From: Psychrobacter sp. I-STPA10
Lineage (GTDB): Bacteria > Pseudomonadota > Gammaproteobacteria > Pseudomonadales > Moraxellaceae
DNA length: 64,000 nucleotides
Assembly (NCBI RefSeq): GCF_021012795.1
Contig: NZ_VFYU01000014.1
Coordinates: 1-64,000, forward strand
Direction of reading: 5' to 3'
The notes under the pieces were generated by a model, which worked only from the letters and a program-made list of their open reading frames with translations, ran no database searches and was not told the DNA's origin. Both the position numbers and the translations under genes were made by a program. Shown piece after piece: positions 28,969-64,000 of the stretch; positions within the stretch are counted from its first letter, which is position 1, and each line of letters opens with the position of its first letter.

Positions 28969-30927
28969 TTAAGGCAACAAACCTGCTTGGATAAGATTGG
29001 TCATCACCCCAGTACTGCGAGTATTGGTATTATGCCAATATATCCGAGTCGCTCCCTTCTCATCTTTCTTACTATAAAGCACATAAGGGGTATTAGCAAC
29101 CCACTGCAAACCGCCAACTGCCTCACCCTTATCTATGAGTAAGCTGTGCGATAACTTGCCAGTTTTTAGATCATAAATCAAGATAGCAGAATACGCATAC
29201 GAGTCACCTTTAGCATCTACGCCCCTACCAAATACACCCTTAGATAAAATGGCAATTTTTTGGCTGTCTGCTGACCATGCGATACTCTGTGCCTCATAGT
29301 CTAAATTATTCTCTAAAACGACTCTTTTTAACTGTTTACCATTTTTATCTGTGATAAATAGAGTTTCTCCATCATTATCGTATTTTAAATAGGCGATTTT
29401 GCCATCATTGGCTATTTTTGCAACAGAGCCATCAATTCCTTCTTTAATAGTGGCAGTTAAGTCATGATTATAAATATCAATACGTGAGATAACTGTTCCA
29501 TCAACCAATTGATCAAACGCACCACCTTTATTAAACACAAAATAGGAAACCACGCTACGATCTTGGGTAGCATTACTATCAAAATTTGACAGCTCATAGT
29601 TAATACTATATTTATTTAAACTACTACCAGCTTGATAGTAGCCAGGTATTCCTGTATAGCTTTTTTTCAAAATACCCGCATTCATACCCTGTTTAGGGAA
29701 GTAAAACAACCGTCTGCTAATTGCCGTTATTTCATTATTTTTAGCAATACTGGGGGTTAGATAGCCATCAATTCCCATAAAACCATCAGCATACTCATAT
29801 ACCTTTTGATCATCATCAAAGGTTGCATTTGTCAGTCGTAGTTTATGGTCTTTTAGTGCCTGCCCGCCTGCACTGACTGTTGATATCTGAGCACCACCTT
29901 TAGCATCAAAGTTTTTAAAGGTAATGCGTTGATTATTGTTGCGCAAGTCACTTGGCATGGCTATCATGTTATTGACACTGATATCACCGTTATAAATGTT
30001 CAGCTCATCAATATAGTAGGTATGATTTCCTGCATCATGATCAGATTGGTAGATATAAAAATAAACATTATCCAGACTACCCAATTCCTTTTGCAACTCA
30101 TCATGATCAAACACATACTTAACCTGCGTCCAATCCTTATAGTCTGCGGTCAGAAATTTATAAGCTGTTTCAGGGTATGCACCATTGCCATTGGCAAAGC
30201 CAATTTGAGTGGTTTCAAACGCACCTTCATTGCCTGTACTTTTGACAAAGAAGCTGACCGTATAGCTCTTAGCATTTTTATTAAGTTTAACTGGACGCTG
30301 AATTTTACTGTCATAAGAACTTTCTGAGCAGGATTTTGAATGACTAATAGCAAGTGCCTGTTTACCTTTGTACTTGCTAGACTGGGTAAACTTAATATCA
30401 CCACATGACTCCCAGCCCACCTTTTGCTCAAAATCACCATTAGTAATTAAATTTTGTGGTGTGGTCGTTGCGACAACCAGTTTGGCGTCATAAACGGCTT
30501 GCTTTGGTTTGGGGTCGTTTGGCTTAGGATCATTTGGCTTAGTATCATTTGGCTTAGTATCATTTGGCTTAGTATCATTTGGCTTAGTATCATTTGGCTT
30601 AGTATCATTTGGCTTAGGATCATTTGGCTTAGGATCATTTGGCTTAGGATCATTTGGTTTAGGATCGTTTGGTTTAGGATCGTTTGGCTTAGGATCATTT
30701 GGCTTAGGATCATTTGGCTTAGGATTGTTTGGTTTAGGGTCGTTTGGTTTGGGATTGCTCGGTTTTGGATCTATGGTACTGCTACTGCCACCAGAATCGC
30801 TACCATTGCTACCACCACAAGCAGTCAATATGGCAATGCTAAACGCAATGACACTCATTTTTAAGGGGTTTACAGGTAGACGATTGCTTAAATACGTATG
30901 CTGACGATAAGACTGTTTAATTTTCAT
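28969..30927 (-). CDS. Lipoprotein with DPKPN repeats, CBM-like domain and propeller
   Basis: A 652-residue surface or periplasmic lipoprotein. Residues 24-38 are a signal peptide with lipobox LTACGG. Then comes Ser/Gly linker, about 18 five-residue repeats (PKPND, with a block of TKPND), residues about 53-145. A carbohydrate-binding-like beta domain follows (NLITNGDFEQKVGWESCG, about 160-310), then WD/TolB-like propeller strands in the last 250 residues (GKIAYLKYDNDGETLFITD, IAWSADSQKIAILSKG). The Pro-rich repeat would be a stiff spacer lifting the binding domain off the membrane. Function unknown; own terminator. Confidence 0.75.
   Translation of the reverse strand: MKIKQSYRQHTYLSNRLPVNPLKMSVIAFSIAILTACGGSNGSDSGGSSSTIDPKPSNPKPNDPKPNNPKPNDPKPNDPKPNDPKPNDPKPNDPKPNDPKPNDPKPNDTKPNDTKPNDTKPNDTKPNDTKPNDPKPNDPKPKQAVYDAKLVVATTTPQNLITNGDFEQKVGWESCGDIKFTQSSKYKGKQALAISHSKSCSESSYDSKIQRPVKLNKNAKSYTVSFFVKSTGNEGAFETTQIGFANGNGAYPETAYKFLTADYKDWTQVKYVFDHDELQKELGSLDNVYFYIYQSDHDAGNHTYYIDELNIYNGDISVNNMIAMPSDLRNNNQRITFKNFDAKGGAQISTVSAGGQALKDHKLRLTNATFDDDQKVYEYADGFMGIDGYLTPSIAKNNEITAISRRLFYFPKQGMNAGILKKSYTGIPGYYQAGSSLNKYSINYELSNFDSNATQDRSVVSYFVFNKGGAFDQLVDGTVISRIDIYNHDLTATIKEGIDGSVAKIANDGKIAYLKYDNDGETLFITDKNGKQLKRVVLENNLDYEAQSIAWSADSQKIAILSKGVFGRGVDAKGDSYAYSAILIYDLKTGKLSHSLLIDKGEAVGGLQWVANTPYVLYSKKDEKGATRIYWHNTNTRSTGVMTNLIQAGLLP
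30505..30768. repeat. 15-bp tandem repeat within the lipoprotein gene
   Basis: About 18 tandem copies of a 15-base unit (forward GGCTTAGGATCATTT, variants with GTATC, GGTTT and CGTTT). The five GTATC units are adjacent at 30541-30605, encoding TKPND, which shows recent unit duplication. Unit loss or gain keeps the reading frame. Confidence 0.9.
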
Positions 30928-56300: not shown

Positions 56301-59300
56301 CTGCAACTCTGCTGCTGAAACAGTTTTAGCATCACTGGCATGCTGTGCTTGTTCATTTTCTTCTGAAGCTGCAAATTTATTTAGTTGCTCAATTACTGAT
56401 TCATCCAATCGCAAAGCCATACTACCTGCAATAGAGTCCAGTAATCCTGTCAACTGCTTTTGTCCAGCTAATAGGGCATTGACTAATTCTTCATCTTCAG
56501 CCTGTATAGGATCATCCGTCAATCTTTGGTAAACTGCTTTTAATGCAGTCAATAATGTCATAAACTTTTTCGAGCCTGAGACTTGTGAAGACATTTTTTC
56601 AATCTGCTGCACAATTCTTTGTGTGTACTCAGCTTTGTGTTTACTATCTGACTGCGCAAGATGACCTTCAAGCTCCCACTCTGCATCTAAAAGCTCATCA
56701 ATTTCATGTGATAAAATATCCGCCACACTAAAGGGTGCTTCTTGTGTCTGTTCATCCTCTGTAAGCTCATTGAACATGACTTGTAGTGCTTCAACTTCTT
56801 GATAACTATCTGTATTTTCTAAGCTGTTTATTTGTTGATCTGCATTAAGAGCAGCATCTGCGCTTTGAAAATCGATAATATACTTTTTAATCAACTGTAC
56901 AGATTGCGTAATGGCTTGCAAATGATTGACATTCATTGTCTCATCATATTGCTGTAGCCGTTTTAAACTATGTTCAACTGTGGTACTAATATCACTAATG
57001 GCTTGCAAAGAGATACTTCCTGAAGCACCACGCAAAGTATGGAAAGCACGTACAAAATCATCATCAACAACGATGGTATTTTGATCTTGGTGATGAGCAA
57101 TAAAAGACTCTATATAATCAACTAATTCAAATGCTTCTTCTAAGAAAATTTCATTAATCTGATTATCCTCAGAACTACTGATCACTTCTGTCTCTGCCAC
57201 TTCTGCCAAGCGTTCATTTGCAGTTTTCAGTGATAACAAGATTTCATCAGTCAAATCAACGTCATCTGTTAGCTTAGTATCAGGACTGACTTTTTCTGCA
57301 TCACTCTGATCTATTTGGGCAGCTTGGGCAGCGTCATCATGATATAAACTTTGCTTAATCTGAGCATAATTAAAATCTGCCGCATCATTTTTACTATAAA
57401 ATTCTGCACATGCTATCCATATAGGTAAGCTATCAGGATAATCTGTCTGATTTTTATAACAGTTTAATAAATCAGGATAGGCAGCCAACACATCAGCGAC
57501 TAACAACTGTATATCAGGATTGGTTTCAATACTATGATCCAAAATCCTATTCATCATATTTTCAATCGACCATGCTAATTCGGCAGAACAATTAGCACCC
57601 ACCATGCGCCCAGAGCCTTTTAAGGTATGAAAACCTCGACGCACTTCTGTCAATATACTTAAATCATCTGGCTGTGTTTTCCACTGCTCATAAAGAGGAT
57701 TGATTGTCTCTAATACCTCTTCAGCTTCTTCAATGAAGATCTCTTTCATATCTCCATTCATCTCAGCATCATCTTTAGGTGTCTGTAGCGTTTCAAGATA
57801 TGCCAATAGGCGTGGCGGAATATTAACATCATCTTGTTGCTGAGCTACCTTAGATGCTGATTCTTCTAGTTGCTCTGTTGCATCTGTTGTTTGCTTTGAA
57901 TCACTCTGCTCATCTAAAGTAGTCTCCTCACTGATATGAGTATCTATTACTGTCTCAGAACTAGATGTCTCTTTACTCTCTTGGTAAGTATCCGTTTTTA
58001 CGTTGCCATCATCATTGCCTACCGCTACAGTCTCAGTTTCAGATGTGCTCTCTTTAGCTGGTGTGTTATCTGAGCTAGAGATACCTAATCCATGGTCAAT
58101 AGGTAATCCTGACTGCAAATTTTGAGCTTGCAGCATGGTGACAGCAGGATCTATAGAAGGAGGTTGCTCTGAAGTAAAATCAGCGACCAAAGTGGGAATT
58201 AAACGTCTGGTTTGATTGATAAACTCAACCAGTGTCTCACTAACAGGTAAGGTATGAGCCAATACCTGATTGAGTAAATTTTCTACCGACCATGCCATCT
58301 CACCAACACTGTACGCGCCAACCATTCTTCCCGACCCCTTAAGGGTATGAAAACCTCGGCGAATTTCAGTCAAAGCCTCTAAGTCTTCTTGGTCGTTTTG
58401 CCAAATAGGTAAGTATTTATCAAACTGTTCAAGCACTTCTTCGGCTTCTTCGATAAATATTTCACGAATGTCTTCATCCATATCAAAGGAATCGGCAATA
58501 AGCTGACTACGAAGCTCTTGTAAAGCCTCACTATCTACTGGCTGTGATAATGCTTGCTGATCATCTGTTGCTACAGACGCCGCAATAACCGCTGAAGATT
58601 GCTCTTGTGAGGATTGCTCTTGTGAGGATTGCTCTTGTATAGTTGCTTGCTCTTGGACTTCAACTTGTTGTATGTCTGCTTGTTCAGATACATCACCACC
58701 TACCTCATCATTTTGCAATGACATTTCTACAGGTGTCACCGCTATTTGCTGAGGCGCATTCAGCAATGTTTCTGTTTCTGTTTCTGTTTCTGTTTCTGTT
58801 TCTGTTTCTGTTTCTGTTTCTGTTTCTGTTTCTGTTTCTGTTTCTGTTTCTGTTTCTGTTTCTGTTTCTGTTTCTGCGTCATCATTCAATAAATGAATAG
58901 CAAAGGCAATATTATCTTGGATTACTTTAAGTAGACCTTCATGCTGGAATTGTTGCTCTAAACAGTCTAAAAACAACTCTACCGCTGCCACACTTTCAAT
59001 AATGGCATCTGTCATATTTTTAGGGATATGCGATATTTCACGCTCTTTTAATATGACAAATAATTGTTCGTACTGCTTTGGAATCACAGCCACTTTGGGC
59101 AATCCAATATCTACAAAAGCATTACTGATGACTTCAAACTGAGAAGCTTCTGGTAACAACTGTACCTCATGTTGCTGCACATATTCTCTAAAATCATGTT
59201 TAATTTGATCGACAAAATCTCGTATTTTATCAAGCATTTCATGATGACTTTGAATATCAATATCAATCGTACCGTCTAAATCATTGATATCATCTACCGC

Positions 59301-60632: not shown

Positions 60633-61075
60633 CGAGCAGTCCTAATGAATTTTTATTAAAGTACAGTTTACTTATAGAGTCTGTCAAAAATTACCCATCT
60701 AAAAGGCGGAGTTTGGAGAGATTAGAATATAACGAGGACTTAAAAAGAGCCAAAATGCAACAATAAATACAGTGTGTATACTAACCAAGTTGTATCTTTT
60801 CACTATCTCGCAATGTTGGCTCTCAATTTTAGCGCATCCTTTCATAGTTATTATTCGTTATGATTCACATAAGTTCTATTATCACTGGTGATCTGTATAA
60901 AATGTTGGGTACTGTTGTTGACTACTTGTGATTATTGCAACATCCTAAAGATACTTTACTTTAACAGCTCAAACCTAATACGATAATATCAATGATATCA
61001 ATGATTTTTTGACAGTCACTGCCACTGCATCATTTGCGCTTATGTATTAAAAATCTCATTAAAATCTAGACTAAA
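60633..61075. other. chpA-pilJ spacer with possible inverted-repeat element
   Basis: A 443-bp gap where many relatives have almost none. GAGTCTGTCAAAAATT near 60679 and, inward from about 61017, AGTGACTGTCAAAAAATC form an imperfect inverted repeat, about 340 bases apart. The interior has no gene. It may be a decayed mobile element; a chpA promoter may also lie here. Confidence 0.5.
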
Positions 61076-63142
61076 TTAGAAAGCTTCCAGCTCTTCTTCA
61101 CTATCATCAAGTTTAAATCCTGATACAGACTCTTGTAATGCCGCCGCCATTTCATTTAGCTGTCCAACTGAGCGAGCGGTTGCCAATGTCCCTGATGAAG
61201 TCTGTGAGGTAATATCTTGAATGACATCCATGGTTTTAGAAATATGTCCAGCAGAGGACGCCTGTTGTTGAGCTGCCTCAGAGATGTTTTGAATCAGATC
61301 TGCCAATGTATTTGAAACAGTTTGTACCTCTTCTAATGCCTCACCAGCATCTTTTGCCAAACGCGCACCACGTACCACCTCTGTGGTGGTAGATTCCATC
61401 GACATAACTGCCTCATTGGTATCTGCCTGAATGGTTTTAACCAACGTTTCAATCTGTTTGGTTGCATTAGCTGAACGTTCTGCCAGACGTTGTACCTCAT
61501 CAGCAACAACCGCAAAACCACGTCCCGCTTCCCCTGCCATCGATGCCTGAATAGCAGCATTTAGTGCCAATACGTTTGTTTGGTCAGCAATATCATTAAT
61601 CAATCCAACAATATCACCAATCTCTTGTGAAGACTCACCCAAACGCTTAATACGTTTTGAGGTTTCTTGGATCTGCTCACGAATGGTATTCATACCTTCA
61701 ATAGAGCGTTGTACAACCTCCGCACCATTATAAGCAATGGCAACTGATTGTTTCGCAACTGCGGTGGACTGTGCTGCGTTGGCAGATACTTGGTCAATAG
61801 AAACGGCCATCTCATTAATCGCAGCAGATACACCTGCTATCTCTTGTGCTTGTTGCTCAGAGGCTTCAGCCAACTCAATCGCTGTCAACTGTGTTGCTTC
61901 TGAGGATTGCGCCACTCGTACTGCCGTTGTATTAATTGCCAGTACCAACTGACGCAATTGGTCAATCGCAAAGTTTACAGAGTCAGCAATCGCACCAGTA
62001 AAGTCTTCAGATACCGTCGCATTCACGGTTAAGTCACCTTCTGCAAGATCACCAAGCTCATCCAAAAGACGTAAAATCGCCATTTGGTTACGCTCGTTCT
62101 CCTCTTGGATTTTCTGTGCCCGCTCCGACTCAACCTGCATGTCTTGACGTTGTCTTAACGTCTCTGTCTCAATAAATAATTTTTCACTGTTGCCACGCAA
62201 TCTATACAGACGGAATAAAGAATATAAAACCCCTAATACACCAAATAATAGTCCCAAAGCAGAGCCCATGACATAGGGGTGTTCAAGTAAATTACGGTTG
62301 ATACTTGCCAGTCTTTTTTGTGTATTATCAGCAAACTCACTCAGCTCTCTTGCTTGCTCTGTACTTTGCACAGAAGGAGATTGCAGATCGGGTATATCTT
62401 CTGTCACAGGCTCGATGATTTTGTTATATAATTGTGCCGCCTCTTGTAAGGCAGGGACTTGTCCACCCATCTGTGAAACTTGTTGATTTAAATTTTGAGC
62501 AAAGCGTTGGCGTAGGTTATTAAAGCCACTAGGAGACTGCTCGGGATTGTCAAGTAACTGCTGATAATCTCGTCCTAATTGCTCAATTCGTTTGATTTGT
62601 TCTTGTAAGCTGGCTATCTGTTCTGGAGTAGCATTGGCTGCGGTTGCCTGCTCAATTGCCCTTGCATATATCGAGTGTAGGGTGCTGGCAGCTTCATTAA
62701 ACTGCTGTTTAGAGTCTTGAACAATATTGGTATTATTTCTATTATTCAAAAAACCCTCTGCTTCAGGTTTTTTTTGTTGCCATTGAGCTAATAAATCATT
62801 AGAAATCGTTGGATCGTCAGTATAGCGTTGCATTTCATAAAGCGCACGCTCATAACCTTGAATATCTTTTTGTAGGTTTTCATATCCTAAAGAAGACATC
62901 TCATAATCTTGTGTGAAGGCAGCTTCATTAATATCATTAATAATTCGTGATGAATAATGATCTAACTCATAGACACTATGAATATAATTATTAATCCTAT
63001 CTAAATACACCACTAAAAGTATCAAACTCACAATACTTACGATTAAAAAAAGCCATAGCAGCCCTATCCACCGTTTTCTTTTGTTGTTAGATTTTAATAG
63101 GGGTTGATTGCTTTCATCTTTTATGGCTATACCTTGGCTCAT
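61076..63142 (-). CDS. pilJ: Twitching methyl-accepting chemotaxis protein PilJ
   Basis: A 688-residue receptor. A short cytoplasmic start is followed by a membrane segment ([19 protein letters not shown]), a long helical periplasmic domain (about residues 45-300), a second membrane segment ([20 protein letters not shown]), HAMP-like region and the MCP signalling tip with [18 protein letters not shown] and [18 protein letters not shown]. The tip is the CheA/CheW contact. In Pseudomonas PilJ senses surface contact through type IV pili. Start ATG at 63142 (MSQGIA) with GAGG upstream; the GTG at 63163 is less likely. Confidence 0.94.
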
Positions 63143-63163
63143 GACATCCGTCCTCAAAAACAC

Positions 63164-63609
63164 AATAGGTTATCAAAATATTGATGTTTAAATTTATTTG
63201 TGAAAAAAATTAAATTGATTGTTAAATTAAATAAGGAAAGCTATACATAACATACTTTCTTCTTAGCCTTTAGAATAAATGTCTTAATACAAGTTTTAAT
63301 TATTGGAACAATTCATTCTAATATTAGGTTAAAGCATAATGGCTCATAAAGTCTGATATAGCCCATATCTATATTTTTTATCTCCACATATTCTATGTTT
63401 TAGGGGTGTGGCTTTATTTATCATTTATCTAAACATAGAGTCTGGATTTACTGATGGTGATCCTTTTTATATCTAAACTAAATTAGTAACTACACGTTAT
63501 TGCTTTATTTTTTGTTTTGATAAGTTATAGAATATCATCATTATCTTGTAAATTAAATTTATAAAATTTATCAATAACTTATAAACAAGAAATACCAATC
63601 ATCACAACA
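63164..63609. other. pilI-pilJ spacer
   Basis: A 446-bp AT-rich gap with no gene. ACTTATAA and TTATAAGT-type sequences around 63525-63590 form short inverted repeats, but no known element was recognised. A pilJ promoter is likely. Confidence 0.45.
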
Positions 63610-64000
63610 CTAAAGCGCAGCTTCTAAGTATCTACTGTCTTTTATCAATAAATTGGGCATAAATACATACCAATGTTGATCATCCCTACTAAAACGTCCA
63701 TGGTTGTAGGGTAAAAAAGCAGAATCTTCAGGAAGAAAAACTGGCTCATACTGTGACAATTTAAACTGTTGAATACCAAACACTTTATCTACCAACAGCC
63801 CTGAATAAATATCAGGTTGATCAATCACCATGATTTTACGGTTTGCAGATGTCAGGTTATCGGTTTGTAAATTGAGGAAAGCTGCCAAATCAGTAATAGG
63901 CAATAAACGACCACGAATATTAGCAATACCTAACATCCAAGATTGAGTTAGCGGTATTGGAGTCATATCAGGTGAAACTAATATCTCGGAGATGTCTCCC
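63610..64000 (-). CDS. pilI: CheW-like coupling protein PilI (5' end outside the window)
   Basis: The visible 129 residues are the C-terminal part of a CheW-domain protein: SWMLGIANIRGRLLPITDLA, IMVIDQPDIYSGLLVDKVFG and WYVFMPNLLIKDSRYLEAAL. The frame stays open to the window end, where GDISEILVSPDMTPIPL precedes it, so the start lies beyond 64000. By position before pilJ and chpA on the same strand, it is PilI, which couples the PilJ receptor to ChpA. A normal PilI is about 175-180 residues, so some 45-50 are missing from view. Confidence 0.88.
   Translation of the reverse strand, partial: GDISEILVSPDMTPIPLTQSWMLGIANIRGRLLPITDLAAFLNLQTDNLTSANRKIMVIDQPDIYSGLLVDKVFGIQQFKLSQYEPVFLPEDSAFLPYNHGRFSRDDQHWYVFMPNLLIKDSRYLEAAL

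Follow-up and report, generated by a model that had tools for sequence, protein, structure and literature searches.

The window, by which we mean the whole stretch of 64,000 nucleotides from Psychrobacter sp. I-STPA10 that was analysed, ends in three genes on the minus strand (Table 1), the longest of which is, judged by its sequence, the chpA gene of a Pil-Chp system. The encoded protein matches Pfam's Hpt (five stretches), HATPase_c, CheW, and Response_reg families, all above the cut-off and with the receiver at the C terminus, and the adjoining genes encode an MCP of the pilJ type and a CheW protein of the pilI type. Since multiple Hpt domains together with HATPase, CheW, and receiver domains, encoded alongside such neighbors, characterize ChpA and the Tfp-class CheA kinases in general, an earlier note on this DNA was right to call the gene chpA. 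Gaps of about 440 bases each (60633-61075 and 63164-63609) separate the three genes. Farther afield, the best four matches to ChpA among those listed from a collection of plasmids are labelled Acinetobacter baumannii (36.5-39.2% identical, across 58-65% of the protein), and a scan of genome contigs gave eight loci, all distant, from Marinobacter and MAGs.

Table 1. Features of the chpA region, in window coordinates.
Feature	Position	Strand	Remarks
chpA, CheA-type hybrid kinase, 2426 aa	53352..60632	-	5 Hpt, HATPase, CheW, and receiver domains
First Pfam Hpt domain	58212..58472	-	Residues 721-807 of ChpA; HTLKGSG motif
Predicted disordered linker, N-terminal helical region to first Hpt	58533..58880	-	Residues 585-700; AlphaFold2 pLDDT <50
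Second in-frame tandem repeat of linker, 15-mer x3.1	58593..58638	-	QEQSS; residues 666-680; TRF
Hexanucleotide tract (GTTTCT)18	58768..58875	+	Read on - as ACA-GAA codons; residues 586-622 of ChpA
pilJ-like chemoreceptor gene (MCPsignal)	61076..63163	-	Upstream of chpA
pilI-like CheW gene	63610..63966	-	Upstream of pilJ-like gene

Within chpA lies a long, pure hexanucleotide repeat. TRF reports it as 58767-58876, with a period of 6, 18.3 copies, and 100% matches, enclosing the 18 units of GTTTCT that the letters themselves show to be free of point changes, as the earlier note had said. The minus strand reads through the tract in codon phase and gives A-E-(TE)17-T. With up to three mismatches allowed, a pattern of three units matches the window 18 times, 17 of them inside the tract, as against a mean of 0.08 and a maximum of 2 in 100 shuffled sequences, which rules out a chance origin. 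A search of the 3.5-Mb assembly for four exact units found the chpA tract as the sole match. Perfect head-to-tail copies within an intact frame of 2426 amino acids are what is meant by a coding hexanucleotide microsatellite. The assembly is a draft in 33 contigs, of unspecified read type, so perhaps the true copy number differs, or part of the tract is an artefact of short reads. This is very unlikely: the tract keeps the frame of an intact ORF well inside a contig of 221 kb, ordinary reads are long enough to cross its 110 bases, and like tracts are found in 12 other genomes of the family.

The tract encodes part of the region connecting the N-terminal portion of ChpA to its first Hpt domain. 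The AlphaFold2 model of residues 1-880 was built from a shallow alignment of seven rows and has a mean pLDDT of 56.6 and a pTM of 0.28, so it was used for local statements only. In it, the N-terminal region is all-helical, with low to modest confidence, and an Hpt domain begins confidently at about residue 720. A FimL-like N-terminal region is a further mark of Tfp-class CheA kinases; that of the window's ChpA is 15-22% identical to that of six relatives of other genera and found no meaningful match among PDB sequences (best E 0.87). Residues 586-719 have a net charge of -36, in keeping with the earlier note's description of an acidic Thr-Glu linker before the first phosphotransfer domain.

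How much does this linker vary? The chpA query matched 102 of the 104 other genomes of the genus (two gave no match), and the set compared comprised 93 genes, a few of which are truncated or interrupted: 92 listed best places from the matching genomes, plus that of the window. In the 72 of 93 genes where sequence anchors worked, the linker is 101-190 residues long (median 121.5); in the window's ChpA it has 173. A perfect repeat of at least 24 nt was found in six of the 93 genes, with units of 6, 9, 12, or 15 bases; besides the window's gene, these are five of the other 92, whose repeats are in frame and have units unlike that of the window. One of them (in genome G096), a 15-mer encoding NSIEA, sits in the same linker as the tract. 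By the TRF results (score at least 50), none of the other 92 genes has a Thr-Glu tract. The range of lengths and the varied repeats of its relatives indicate that the linker is, on sequence grounds, tolerant of length change and of repeats.

Every TRF period (score at least 50) in the 93 chpA genes is divisible by three, which bears on the question of whether the tract switches ChpA on and off through frameshifts. Long, pure coding repeats are the classical contingency loci of other bacteria, as stated in an excerpt of PMC3899988, but here the unit has six bases, stands in codon phase in the middle of the gene, and keeps the frame with every whole-unit step. Frameshift switching by such steps is thereby ruled out, and we give phase variation of ChpA next to no credence. 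The earlier claim that the tract can change in length without loss of frame holds for the same reason. Among the matches listed in a literature search, no report of a repeat in chpA was found in titles or the openings of abstracts.

The codons of the tract speak to how it arose. All 17 complete units in codon phase are ACA-GAA, while in the remainder of chpA, 57 of 139 Thr codons are ACA and 116 of 220 Glu codons are GAA. Given a Thr-Glu repeat and the gene's own codon usage, there is a probability of about 5e-12 that all units would be ACA-GAA. Since the codons do not differ between units, the repeat is recent at the level of DNA and is no old protein repeat. We infer that replication slippage made the chpA tract and keeps it pure, and that (GTTTCT)18, a long representative of a familiar class of hexanucleotide microsatellites, is probably unstable.

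Slippage, which the earlier note takes to be ongoing, finds indirect support of two kinds: the purity just described at the level of codons and the length differences of like tracts in the orthologues of other genes. The comparison set has one genome per species. Groups of orthologues were formed by masked BLASTP from tract-bearing ORFs available as loci, with at least two members per group; the pair of ChpA proteins was excluded because their tracts sit in different linkers. Tract length differs in all six groups (in dipeptides, 4/5/5, 13/6, 8/6, 15/21, 11/8/9, and 10/5). Even genomes G023 and G059, whose chpA cores are nearly identical, have 4 and 5 units, respectively. Loss of mismatch repair was set aside as a cause, no loss of mutS, the gene searched for, having been seen: the assembly has a MutS-family frame of 1043 aa scoring over the cut-off. 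The near relative G078 reads ATT ATT ACT GAG ACA GTT at about the aligned place, too small a resemblance to prove descent of the tract from such a seed. Seeds of the hexamer, tallied by frame in the DNA fetched, amounted to two cases, too few for use.

Tracts like that of chpA occur in unrelated genes of the genus and the family, so the class of repeat is not confined to chpA. Across the 105 genomes of the genus, pure (ACAGAA)4 is present in four and the reversed pattern in one, and four Thr-Glu units in any codons are present in 25, as against 16 for the backwards pattern. Across the 348 genomes of the family, pure tracts of (ACAGAA)5 or more are present in 13, compared with 1 for the reversed control (Fisher p 0.002) and 3 for the isomer CAAGAA (p 0.02), kinship being ignored in these tests. 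The hosts of the tracts include a ClpB-type ATPase, a solute-binding protein, a DnaJ-domain protein, CcmH, an usher, and DnaX, and several have no Pfam match. A disordered setting is not universal, since in one group of orthologues (L152, L156, and L162) a Thr-Glu tract of 4-5 units lies inside a Pfam methyltransferase domain (the domain scan being of L152), where repeats are unusual.

All 13 pure ACAGAA tracts read Thr-Glu, and these represent nine independent positions in eight gene families. The probability of Thr-Glu at all nine is 1e-7 if the six frames are equally likely and 5e-5 if only the three sense frames are considered. Of the CAAGAA tracts, by contrast, one reads Asn-Lys (in a frame of 183 aa), one reads Glu-Gln (in a frame of 75 aa), and the third has no clear long frame. 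A broader examination of 27 loci found Thr-Glu in the longest ORF of 24 (two of them short, 68 and 91 aa) and Ser-Gln, on the opposite strand, in two orthologues, and one (L141), close to a contig end, had no clear ORF; five of the 25 any-codon genomes (G090, G092, G098, G100, and G104) yielded no locus and were left out. The argument from frame is limited to the pure set, because the any-codon loci were found by their Thr-Glu pattern in the first place. Within that set, the uniformly acidic frame points to a filter at the level of the protein, acting either against other frames or in favor of Thr-Glu.

There are other repeats of note. The Ser-Gln readings (L153 and L159, in G030 and G047) comprise 13 and 6 dipeptides, close to the N-terminal end of an ATP-grasp protein of the circularly permuted type. 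The genome of the window also has (L178, contig C15 near 131966-132007) a 760-aa frame with one Asp-Ser run and one Ala-Glu run, both acidic hexamer tracts. Within the window itself, a 15-mer array at 30503-30755 (253 bp, 16.9 copies, 92%) encodes in-frame DPKPN/DTKPN repeats. The protein that contains them has 652 aa (28969-30927, minus strand) and a start like that of a lipoprotein, and the repeats lie close to its N terminus.

One further tract falls in a ChpA: L172, in genome G220 of another genus, where a minus-strand ORF carries a pure ACAGAA tract, (TE)6, in one of the linkers that join its later Hpt domains. Two independent ChpA tracts in the family may be more than chance, but the gene is very long and has many linkers.

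The chpA linker of the genus also has a conserved motif, usually V[L/V/I]RYDDSGE[I/V], and this is missing from the window's ChpA. A strict pattern for the motif, applied to whole ORFs, matches 84 of the 93 genes. Five of those it misses (G078, G103, G073, G011, and G016) have close variants, and G100 retains RFDDNN only. In another two misses (G063 and G051), the ORF analysed lacks the linker, and a separate locus of G063 (L017) shows RYDDAGE. The window's ChpA is matched by neither the strict pattern nor a relaxed one (the latter misses G075, which the strict pattern matches). An alignment of nine linkers puts the tract directly before the place of the motif. Perhaps the loss reflects general divergence, since in a tree of the core (90 of 93 rows) no end branch is longer than that of the window's ChpA (0.5, flagged as unsure). 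This ChpA groups there with G078, G075, and G063, and with G078 in a tree of five rows. RYDDSGE[I/V] is a candidate binding motif.

Might the linker need an acidic Thr-Glu spacer, for its charge or its extension, for example after the loss of RYDDSGE? Positive selection for such spacers, instead of tolerance of them, could account for the uniform frame and for the excess over two hexamers of the same composition. The nine-of-nine Thr-Glu readings are what one would expect, and so is a tract just ahead of the place of a motif that nearly all relatives have and the window lacks. However, protein-level selection would let synonymous codons drift, yet none did in the tract, and G078, with its variant of the motif, has no TE tract. 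We consider this explanation quite unlikely. A bolder scheme would have poly Thr-Glu of the form (ACN GAR)n born repeatedly in the family and retained mainly where acidic, in linkers and tails, as a renewable source of variation in spacer length; here it would have grown beside RYDDSGE[I/V], perhaps displacing it, and so rewired what binds to the linker in Pil-Chp signaling. That full scenario is doubtful.

The explanation we favor, with a probability of roughly 0.7, is that the tract is a near-neutral hexanucleotide microsatellite, made by slippage and filtered for an acidic product that preserves the frame. Slippage would generate the tract and keep it pure in a region encoding a long, disordered, acidic linker. 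Since the unit has six bases, a gain or loss would add or remove a Thr-Glu pair with the frame intact, and the protein would be expected to function. Selection would mainly purge tracts that arise in harmful frames or that upset folded domains. The linker would act as a tether between the N-terminal region and the first Hpt, and one unit is 2 residues of a tether of about 134. Treating the tether as an excluded-volume chain, with an assumed scaling exponent, gives a scaling estimate of about 3% change in effective tether concentration per unit, so near-neutrality is to be expected of most single steps. Larger changes are possibly visible: the loss of 9 units is estimated to raise the concentration about 1.3-fold and the loss of all 18 about 1.7- to 1.9-fold.

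Those larger shifts count in favor of a tuning role, which the earlier note had suggested for twitching between cells: the unstable length of the tract would be maintained because it alters Pil-Chp signaling, hence twitching, and so provides useful diversity from cell to cell. Also, chpA regulates motility, an excerpt of PMC8088505 describes chpA mutants of A. baumannii as non-transformable, and the assembly carrying the tract encodes PilB and two PilT-family ATPases (above the cut-off), making pili plausible. Against the proposal stand the small share of the tether that one unit represents, the like tracts in unrelated proteins, the 92 other chpA genes compared, none with a Thr-Glu tract by TRF, and the wide differences in linker length between species. 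We think it unlikely that twitching is tuned in this way. If length steps do matter, natural variants would be a ready titration of the linker of a pilus kinase with multiple Hpt domains. Should the steps have no effect, the near-neutral microsatellite is still a clean example of slippage and a protein-level frame filter acting together to lengthen acidic spacers. The tract may double as a marker for typing the species.

Several known systems resemble this one in part. The ChpA of Pseudomonas aeruginosa is likewise a CheA-type kinase with multiple Hpt domains and a receiver, encoded with genes of the pilJ and pilI types. Compared by description, it is reported to have eight or nine phosphotransfer-type domains (excerpts of PMC10542144 and PMC12632253), as against five Pfam Hpt domains here, and the (TE)17 linker tract sets the window's ChpA apart from the P. 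aeruginosa protein as known from such descriptions. With contingency loci, such as the tetranucleotide tracts of Haemophilus, the chpA tract shares a pure tandem repeat in which slippage is expected. In those loci, a change of one unit shifts the frame or the spacing of a promoter; the chpA tract does neither, as its unit is divisible by three, affording no on/off switch, and it lies in mid-gene rather than at a promoter. A further parallel is with the coding hexanucleotide repeats of H. influenzae, which, in the excerpted account of PMC2651432, also have a six-base unit within an ORF, alter amino acids without frameshift, and do not, in the authors' judgment, mediate phase variation. In the set of four genomes described there, those repeats were conserved or changed in sequence, never in length, unlike the present case, where the chpA tract extends to 18 units and like tracts in the Moraxellaceae vary in length among orthologues.
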